A stretch of DNA of 36,021 nt from an uncultured Actinomycetes bacterium (GTDB lineage Bacteria > Actinomycetota > Actinomycetes > S36-B12 > UBA5976), in NCBI GenBank assembly GCA_903892635.1, contig CAITJH010000070.1, positions 1 through 36,021 of the forward strand, written 5' to 3'. This document shows positions 6,452 to 24,969 of this stretch, piece by piece (within the stretch, counting starts at the first letter, position 1; every line of letters begins with the position of its first letter). The notes under the pieces are model-generated. The model saw only the letters and a program-made list of their open reading frames with translations, searched no databases and had not been told where the DNA came from. Both the position numbers and the translations under genes were made by a program.

Positions 6452-6831
6452 TAGACGAGTCGGTCTGTAAGCCGGATTCTGTACTGCTTGCGCAGCGATG
6501 ATCATCCATCTGCGATCGCCGTTGCCGACAACCTGTTGCAACCTACCTGCAGGCCTGTGACGGGCCGTCACCTGCTCTGAGCCGAAGCTCTCTTGGTCTT
6601 GCTCCGAGTGGGGTTTACCTAGCTGACTGTGTCACCACAATCACTGGTGAGCTCTTACCTCACCGTTTCACCCTTACCCAGACTCCAAATACATGGAGCC
6701 GTGGCGGTTTACTTTCTGTTGCACTTTCCCGTGGGTCACCCCAGGTGGACGTTATCCACCACTCTTGCCCTGTGGAGTCCGGACTTTCCTCGCACATTGC
6801 TGCGCGCGATCACCCGACCGACTCGTCTGCC
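6452..6831 (-). ncRNA. rnpB: RNase P RNA (bacterial type A)
   Basis: Catalytic RNA of ribonuclease P, which removes 5' leaders from pre-tRNAs. The reverse complement starts with GCAGACGAGTCGGTCGGGTG and contains the invariant GAGGAAAGTCCGGACTCC, then ACAGGGCAAGAG, ACGGGAAAGTGCAACAGAAA and GGTAAACCCCAC, and ends with ACAGAATCCGGCTTACAGAC. The 5' GACGAGTCGGTC and 3' GACCGACTCGTC ends form the P1 stem, which fixes both boundaries to within a few bases. Length is about 380 nt. It is divergent from the amidohydrolase gene and convergent with DUF1905. Small open frames inside it are artefacts. Confidence 0.97.
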
Positions 6832-11917: not shown

Positions 11918-11923
11918 CAACGT

Positions 11924-11996
11924 GGGCGCTAAGGGACTCGAACCCCTGACCCTCTCGGTGTAAACGAGATGCTCTAGCCAACTGAGCTAAGCGCCC
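11924..11996 (-). tRNA. tRNA-Val (anticodon UAC)
   Basis: A 73-nt cloverleaf on the minus strand. Acceptor stem GGGCGCT/AGCGCCC, D-arm GCTCAGTTGGCTAGAGC, anticodon stem TCTCG/CGAGA with loop TTTACAC (anticodon TAC), and T-arm with loop TTCGAGT closed by AGGGG/CCCTT (one G-U pair). CCA is not encoded; ACG follows the discriminator region, so CCA is added after transcription. It reads GUA and, by wobble, other GUN valine codons. Confidence 0.96.
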
Positions 11997-23415: not shown

Positions 23416-23456
23416 AAAAGTAAAGCCCTACTCGATTGAGTAGGGCTTTACTTTTT
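23416..23456. terminator. Bidirectional intrinsic terminator after accD
   Basis: Perfect inverted repeat with 18-nt arms (23416-23433 and 23438-23455), a 4-nt GATT loop and A/T outer ends (AAAAGTAAAG / CTTTACTTTTT). It separates the convergent accD and DUF3145 genes and works in both directions. Confidence 0.97.
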
Positions 23457-23462
23457 CTCAAG

Positions 23463-23969
23463 CTATCCGACTTGATGTAACCAGCGAACTGGTACTCCTT
23501 CACCGGCATAGCGGAATGGCTCTAGTTCACGGTCCCACGGACCGCCGAGAACTTCATCCACTACATCCATCAATGAACGTCCATCTGCAACTGCGGCTGC
23601 CATGGCACTACGCAGACGTTCTTCACTAATGAAAGCTTCTCCAAACACGCCCATAGGGCTACGCCACATTCCTAGCGACGGCGTTGAAACGAATCGTTGA
23701 CCGTCAAAACCAGGTGATGGCTCTTCTGTTACTTCAAATCTCAAGTGCGGGTAACTACGAAGCGACGATGCAATCGTTGCCGACAACCCTGAAGCGCCAG
23801 TCCATGACAACTCACTGCGCATTGTTCCTGTTGCAACTGGTTGATCGACCCAATCAAGATTGACTGCAGCACCAAGAAGGCCACCGAGGGCCCATTCGAC
23901 ATGCGTACATAGCGCGCGCGGCGCACTATGAATAAACACAACGCCACGAGCTTGGCTGGAATTAGCCAT
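23463..23969 (-). CDS. DUF3145 family protein
   Basis: A 168-residue actinobacteria-specific protein. Diagnostic segments are ARGVVFIHSAPRALCTHVEW, GTMRSELSWTGASGLSATIA, LRFEVTEEPSPGFDGQRF and LGGPWDRELEPFRYAGEG. The function is unknown, but the gene is a conserved neighbour of the fatty-acid operon (also after fabF in Streptomyces), so a role connected with lipid metabolism is suspected. The ATG at 23969 is preferred because GGAG is 5-6 nt upstream; an in-frame GTG two codons earlier would sit directly on the ribosome site. Its leader can form a large hairpin that covers this site. Confidence 0.9.
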   Translation of the reverse strand: MANSSQARGVVFIHSAPRALCTHVEWALGGLLGAAVNLDWVDQPVATGTMRSELSWTGASGLSATIASSLRSYPHLRFEVTEEPSPGFDGQRFVSTPSLGMWRSPMGVFGEAFISEERLRSAMAAAVADGRSLMDVVDEVLGGPWDRELEPFRYAGEGVPVRWLHQVG

Positions 23970-23974
23970 TCTCA

Positions 23975-24047
23975 CTCCTACAGATTCGAACCACCGGCAA
24001 ATGCTGGCTTCCCCACCACGATTTGCTTGTCGAACCCCTGTAAGGAG
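23975..24047 (-). promoter_or_regulatory. Structured leader hiding the ribosome site of DUF3145
   Basis: In the minus-strand RNA, CTCCTTACAG (24047-24038) pairs with CTGTAGGAG (23983-23975), one bulged base, and the second arm contains the GGAG ribosome site. Inside, TTCGA pairs with TCGAA (24034-24030 with 23989-23985), GCAAAT with ATTTGC (24026-24021 with 24002-23997) and TGG with CCA, closed by a TGGGGAAG loop. The nested stems make a single long hairpin ending just before the start codon. Confidence 0.55.
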
Positions 24048-24129
24048 GTCTTGGTTACGAGGATAAACCCCCGAGGCGCCACAACGCCACTAGATACTGA
24101 AAAATACGGAAAAATTGAGTAATTTCGGG

Positions 24130-24969
24130 CTAAATCTGTGCGCTCGACCAATCCATTAAGGACTGCCACATTGGATGCCAGCCTTTATAACTGCGTGTCT
24201 CTTCGCTCGTGGTCGCCAAAGTTGCACCTAGATTTACCCGAAATTCTGGGTACATTTCGGCTAACTCGTTAAGCGAGTTCACGCGGTTACGAATAGTGAA
24301 TAACACGTCCGAACTTGGCAGAACTCGCATTGTTTGTCGTTCCGTGCGAAAGAACGTCACGTCACCAAATTCGCCTTCTAAAACTGGCGGGCGCGCAATG
24401 TCTCGGAATTCGCCAGTTGGTTGATACAACTCGGGTGAATCAACAATGGTCCAATTCACTCGCCACACTGGTCGATCTGCCGTGAATTTTCCAAACATAG
24501 TATTTGTTGCATCACCAATGCGCTCTGCATAGTGCGGCACGGGTCCATGAATTTCGTGCAAGTTCGCGCCAATTTTTTCTTTTAAGTTCCATCGACTCGG
24601 GAAACACACGCAAGCGGCAGTGAGTACCCATTGGCCATCTCGCGGACTCATGATGACCAGATCCTCTTGAACATGGCGGGCACCAGCTTCTAGAGGATGA
24701 ATGTCCTGATCAAATTCAACAGAATCTCCAAAGATGTCGGGAAAACGCTGTGGCAAATGGTCACTCAGAAGTTCAGCAACTTCCTGCGAACCTTTAAGCC
24801 CTTCCGGCAATGCGCCAAAAACTTGGTCGTGATGGTCTTTCAGTAATTCGTCTTTCTTTCGCAGCTGCGCATCGCGATCGGAATCAATCTCAATCCAGTC
24901 AACAAGATCTAAGGCACGAAGTCCCATAGAGACCGAAAAGGCTCGGCCATCAATAGGCATGTAAGGCAT
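24130..24969 (-). CDS. Haem-dependent oxidative N-demethylase-like protein (DUF3445)
   Basis: A 279-residue member of the DUF3445/HODM family, whose characterised members are haem proteins that oxidatively remove methyl groups from dimethylamine-type substrates. Family strings include HVQEDLVIMSPRDGQWVLTA, ACVCFPSRWNLKEKIGANL, EIHGPVPHYAERIGDATN, RPVWRVNWTIVDSPELYQP and FRTERQTMRVLPSSDVLFTI. In the bacterial enzyme complex the subunit works with flavin/iron-sulfur partners; none is encoded next to it here, so it resembles standalone homologues. The ATG at 24969 follows a leaderless -10. It lies just downstream of the PAP2 gene on the same strand (19-nt gap). Confidence 0.83.
   Translation of the reverse strand: MPYMPIDGRAFSVSMGLRALDLVDWIEIDSDRDAQLRKKDELLKDHHDQVFGALPEGLKGSQEVAELLSDHLPQRFPDIFGDSVEFDQDIHPLEAGARHVQEDLVIMSPRDGQWVLTAACVCFPSRWNLKEKIGANLHEIHGPVPHYAERIGDATNTMFGKFTADRPVWRVNWTIVDSPELYQPTGEFRDIARPPVLEGEFGDVTFFRTERQTMRVLPSSDVLFTIRNRVNSLNELAEMYPEFRVNLGATLATTSEETRSYKGWHPMWQSLMDWSSAQI

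Follow-up and report, generated by a model that had tools for sequence, protein, structure and literature searches.

The DUF3145 gene in the window, a 36,021-nucleotide stretch of DNA from an uncultured Actinomycetes bacterium, is directly preceded by a real RNA hairpin, which sits just before the start codon. What is conserved in this hairpin is its apex, where a short stem carries an H-GGGGAA-G cap. The GGGGAA leader hairpin constitutes a new RNA family, with no counterpart in our searches of Rfam 15. Compensatory changes in its two stems, P1 and P2, point to a structured cis-regulatory RNA, and the apical hairpin is probably an ancestral element that is shared by the class. With modest confidence we read it as a hairpin through which a bound protein would control translation, where the protein would be DUF3145 or another conserved one.

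An earlier note, made from the sequence of the window, had described a long leader hairpin that takes in the ribosome site of a DUF3145 gene. Much of that description holds up. The gene is indeed DUF3145, judging by its PF11343 match. On the minus strand, CTCCTTACAG does pair with CTGTAGGAG in the minimum-energy fold, the nested helices are found within this outer stem, and the ribosome site lies in the 3' arm. The coordinates are given in Table 1. AGGAG is 5 nt upstream of the ATG, and a 2x2 internal loop separates P1 from P2.

Table 1. Parts of the DUF3145 leader and gene, in window positions.
Feature	Position	Strand	Basis
DUF3145 gene	23463..23969	-	ATG start 23969; PF11343 E 4.5e-63; homologues use the same ATG
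Complete leader hairpin (outer stem, P1, P2, loop)	23975..24047	-	minimum-energy fold
Outer stem 5' arm CTCCTTACAG	24038..24047	-	sequence and fold
Outer stem 3' arm CTGTAGGAG, with Shine-Dalgarno AGGAG (23979-23975)	23975..23983	-	sequence, fold, Shine-Dalgarno accessibility
P1 5' arm GCAAAT	24021..24026	-	fold and comparison
P1 3' arm ATTTGC	23997..24002	-	fold and comparison
P2 5' arm TGGT	24015..24018	-	covariation
P2 3' arm GCCA	24005..24008	-	covariation
Conserved hexaloop GGGGAA	24009..24014	-	128/137 class leaders
Predicted -10 element TATCCT	24060..24065	-	TAT[TC][CG]T in 17/17 genus leaders

The next gene upstream on this strand, at 24130-24969, belongs to the PF11927 family. It ends at 24130, and the 154 nt described earlier between this end and DUF3145 are correct provided that DUF3145 starts at the GTG at 23975. 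On the plus strand, tail to tail with DUF3145, is what we take from the sequences to be a fabH-acpP-fabF-accD cluster. A near-perfect inverted repeat with runs of A and T, AGTAAAGCCCTACTC/GAGTAGGGCTTTACT, was seen by eye at 23416-23458. Lying between accD and DUF3145, it probably acts as a terminator in both directions, and was not reported by the terminator scan. That scan found no intrinsic terminator or attenuator on the minus strand.

Taken by itself, the fold of the window is weak evidence, and the comparison of homologues is decisive. The 81-nt fold has an energy of -28 kcal/mol and a z of -2.2, with 9 of 200 shuffles equally stable. For the 190-nt leader, z is 0.03 and 96 of 200 shuffles are equally stable. 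The outer stem is therefore unimpressive in the window alone.

The gene is found in 18 of the 23 genomes of the window's genus, and in 31/43 of the family. Thirty family leaders were fetched, one of which is cut by a contig end; all 29 that reach far enough have a GGGGAAG hairpin just before the ribosome site. This extends to a leader (L031) whose DUF3145 protein has 28% identity. PF11343 is present in 138/148 genomes of the class. In a sample of the phylum it scored above the cut-off in 38/396 genomes, all of them from the window's class. One of the 138 class leaders is cut off, and 128 of the 137 readable ones carry the GGGGAAG hairpin. The earlier note described a long hairpin: the hairpin exists, but the conserved part is the apex with its GGGGAA loop, which had been overlooked, and not the outer stem. 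The consensus is GAGG-N-CG[CU][U/A/C]-GGGGAA-G[G/A]CG-NN-CCUC. The loop column of alignments A4 and A6 is invariant in part because leaders were chosen by GGGGAAG; the unselected counts are the 128/137 and 29/29 above. Some sequences are truncated, L019 and L246 at contig ends and L327 at the end of the locus.

All nine class leaders that lack the loop belong to one Streptomyces-rich genus (g10), of which a tenth sampled member (L044) retains it. Several named Streptomyces among the loci of the pattern scan described below also retain the GGGGAAG hairpin. In most sampled members of this genus the loop is lost and DUF3145 is well conserved (L034-L039, L041-L043, L045). One of these, L034, seems to have kept a GAGG/CCTC stem.

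Compensatory variation among homologous leaders had been set beforehand as a test of the hairpin, and it is present in P1 and P2. In alignment A3, P2 (columns 23-32) pairs as CG, UA, UG or GC in 42/42 sequences. Over 109 non-redundant leaders, the 11-pair structure has 76.3% of its cells paired versus 64.9% in shuffles, and 169 double-changed cells versus 76. The covariation score is 0.386 against 0.201 in shuffles, with 0/500 shuffles as high, and it falls to 0.19 or less if the partners are displaced by one to three columns. The position of P1 varies by a base between lineages, and for this reason it was also controlled by swapping 3' arms between sequences. P1 has at least 4 base pairs in 94/109 natural pairs, versus 53% of swapped arms. 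For leaders without the common GAGR arm this is 38/48 versus 33%, and 0/500 swaps did as well. A 38-column model built from 42 leaders recovers all 49 of the loop-bearing leaders among 59 loci.

Closure of the Shine-Dalgarno sequence by the outer stem is a trait of the window's genus, and is weak in the rest of the class. In the window the Shine-Dalgarno is unpaired with a probability of 0.01, versus a mean of 0.49 in shuffles (1/60 as low). Fifteen of the 17 genus leaders were evaluated, with L010 left out because the Shine-Dalgarno pattern did not match, and L012 because it was absent from the list used. Their mean unpaired probability is 0.14, versus 0.39 with the upstream sequence shuffled, and 14/15 are below their own shuffle mean. 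The 138 leaders from outside the genus have a median of 0.36. For 37 of these, picked by unseeded hash, the mean is 0.37 versus 0.48 in shuffles, lower in 25/37. On these numbers the closure is a feature of the genus and the apical hairpin is what is shared. This also bears on the earlier suggestion of a translational switch. A structured leader that hides the Shine-Dalgarno in the window's genus and shows compensatory changes is supported, and its arrangement fits translational control, but the closure is strong only there.

It is possible, if unlikely, that the outer stem is a mere side effect of complementarity to Shine-Dalgarno-like sequence, and that only the apical hairpin matters. The two z values of the window by itself would agree with this, as would the weak closure beyond the genus and the leaders L015-L017, where the Shine-Dalgarno is roughly as open as in shuffles. 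It fits less well with the reduced accessibility in nearly all evaluated genus leaders, which is achieved through differing outer stems. These vary in sequence and yet pair, for example as CUCCUAG/CUAGGAG, CUCCCA/UGGGAG and CCAUUUG/CGAAUGG.

The 5' arm of the hairpin should be transcribed, since a -10-like TAT[TC][CG]T is found upstream of it in 17/17 genus leaders, at a distance of 33-65 nt from the loop. In the window this predicted element would place the transcript start near 24050-24055, a few bases upstream of the arm, in agreement with the transcript that the earlier note needed. A hairpin near the predicted 5' end, together with weak Shine-Dalgarno closure in most of the class, might also suit an element for mRNA stability or processing, such as a site of nuclease attack or a hairpin that shields the 5' end, that leaves initiation unregulated. 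We hold this to be improbable, given that an invariant loop bound to a single gene is seldom required for such functions, and that the window's genus shows strong closure.

The tie to one gene is close. The pattern GAGRNCGYHGGGGAAGRCGNNYCTC was scanned over 84,980 genomes, where it has at least 119 stretches, with at least 80 loci given. All 80 listed loci bear actinobacterial titles. Among the matches listed, 77/80 loci have the pattern followed 24-92 nt later by the start of a DUF3145 match; of the other three, one ends at the pattern and two are from Corynebacterium. Scanning viral contigs with the pattern gave no match. When the model was run on class genomes, 39 of the 44 listed hits of at least 30 bits were DUF3145 leaders by position, as counted by hand. 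That so strongly conserved an RNA element is nearly always found at DUF3145 says that the dose of this gene is probably controlled.

The earlier note could not match the leader to a known riboswitch class, and the Rfam search agrees. In Rfam 15 the leader has no match at gathering score, and window positions 23850-24250 have none up to an E of 5. Eight class loci gave only tRNAs and weak matches overlapping tRNAs. A small-molecule riboswitch, responding for example to malonyl-CoA, acyl-CoA or another precursor of fatty acids, is less probable again than a stability element. The conserved loop, the position in cis and the frequent proximity of DUF3145 to fabH/acpP/fabF/accD would all suit one. 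By the standard of aptamers, however, a lone hairpin of some 38 nt with a loop of 6-8 nt is small. No Rfam riboswitch matches, and no switching partner structure was seen in the leader.

Less probable still is antisense control, in which a small RNA or rRNA would act in trans by pairing with the loop. An unpaired, G-rich and invariant loop is what this would want, but small-RNA targets are not usually found so constantly at a single gene throughout a class. An RNA thermometer, which the earlier note also offered and which the Shine-Dalgarno within the stem of the window's genus might suggest, is very improbable: it needs stem stability and not an invariant loop kept across very different habitats, and in the class the Shine-Dalgarno is not generally closed. 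All four of these, from stability element to thermometer, rank below control by a bound protein. A conserved leader peptide was considered too. An ATG or GTG frame is open through the loop in 119 of 158 leaders, but these fall into different frames (51, 49 and 84), and the idea was dropped.

Other occurrences of the hairpin do not add up to a regulon. The window's own genome has a second model hit (L063, G000:C81:8018-8055, minus strand), a UGGU-GGGGAA-GCCA hairpin in the leader of another gene, presumably PIN/PhoH-like to go by its sequence. Only 4/19 genus leaders of that gene contain GGGGAAG, and a wider regulon including it was rejected. Ten genomes of the genus have a CCGG-AGGGGAAG-CCGG hairpin about 20 nt before the gene of a 68-residue DNA-binding protein (L127-L136), which we assume to be bldC-like. 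These ten are too closely related to count as regulon evidence. Most other secondary hits in GC-rich genomes are inside open reading frames, as expected of a 28-bit model.

Control by a bound protein is the reading we favour because the hairpin is gene-specific, has an invariant loop and lies beside the ribosome site. Short hairpins with an invariant loop are typical of protein-bound leader sites. The P1/P2 hairpin with its H-GGGGAA-G cap would act in cis, from within the DUF3145 5' leader, on a transcript that should start just before the 5' arm. A protein would recognise the loop and upper stem and so stabilise the hairpin. This would keep ribosomes off and thereby set the output of DUF3145. 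In the window's genus, the additional outer stem also takes in the Shine-Dalgarno. In the most economical version, DUF3145 binds its own leader, a putative autogenous feedback. Alternatively, the binder may be another conserved RNA-binding protein, one that tracks the state of fatty-acid synthesis. Speaking against control by a protein are the weak closure outside the genus, and the Streptomyces-rich genus that has the gene but mostly not the loop.

Similar arrangements are known. Autogenous leader hairpins, for example those of ribosomal proteins, are gene-specific, sit beside the Shine-Dalgarno, have a conserved loop and occur at about one site per genome. The DUF3145 leader is like them in these features, but DUF3145 itself is not a ribosomal protein and as a binder is only putative. 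Comparative genomics has also delivered candidate leader motifs, which are covarying structures upstream of genes without known function. The leader resembles these as well, and differs in not being among the Rfam 15 families that scored.

The ANTAR-target RNAs of Actinobacteria, as far as the available part of PMC8164766 describes them, are likewise short, protein-bound hairpins in mRNA leaders, some of which adjoin or overlap the ribosome site. They are paired stem-loops with six-base loops, with A at position 1 and G at position 4. GGGGAA shares this G4. The DUF3145 leader differs in having G1 instead of A1, a single hairpin and nearly always a single gene. Lacking A1, and with one conserved hairpin and not two tandem stem-loops, it is not an ANTAR target by that partial description.

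The structure of DUF3145 neither shows nor excludes RNA binding, going by a confident AlphaFold2 model (mean pLDDT 89). The N-terminal alpha/beta part aligns best to ferredoxin/ACT-like domains and PII proteins. Against the C-terminal domain of NikR, Z is 7.0 with an rmsd of 2.4 over 77 residues, and such Z values are common. A Foldseek search with the model gave no significant match (best E 0.017), and neither did a sequence search of the PDB with the DUF3145 profile (best E 0.19). No recognisable RNA-binding domain was found in DUF3145. A FabF-like gene is present at 48 of the 80 named loci. In the literature searched, of which parts were available, DUF3145 is named by two papers, one time in each and never in connection with RNA; these searches also returned nothing on a GGGGAA leader element.

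Corynebacterium informs the choice of binder. Neither of its two genomes in the pattern scan has a PF11343 match. In both, the hairpin lies ahead of the gene for a small protein, relatives of which occur in 48/81 genomes of the genus, and among the homologues from these 48, the GGGGAAG hairpin is in 30/30 of the subset of leaders read. This protein has similarity to the first DUF3145 domain (AVLTISGMPRALRP.VE.AM versus VVFIHSAPRALCTHVEWAL). Using hhalign, the match to DUF3145 is no more than suggestive, with a P of 0.0023 and a probability of 13%, and is weaker with one or two sequences. Pfam and NCBIfam searches with the Corynebacterium protein turned up nothing convincing, and its structure model, at pLDDT 37, is useless. 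From its sequence, the protein (L428-L457) may be a shortened and diverged DUF3145. Should it be an orthologue, evolution has preserved the RNA far more faithfully than the protein; otherwise a second gene is under the control of the element. In both cases a binder other than DUF3145 becomes more probable than it had seemed at first. DUF3145 itself is disfavoured as the binder because in Corynebacterium the RNA is nearly unchanged, and the protein hardly recognisable. The Corynebacterium leader also offers a route to diverged DUF3145 orthologues via their hairpin.

Tentatively, and with more doubt than the protein-bound reading as such, a class-wide element better conserved than its protein could mean one of two things. 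DUF3145 may be the founder of a novel type of RNA-binding protein that regulates itself, or a conserved Actinomycetes factor, corynebacteria included, may read the GGGGAA hairpin and tie the gene to fatty-acid synthesis. A factor that binds the loop would reveal the pathway of DUF3145, a near-universal gene of the class without a known role.

The window contains two further structured RNAs, both on the minus strand: a class A RNase P RNA (299.8 bits) at 6452-6825, and a tRNA-Val at 11922-11996.
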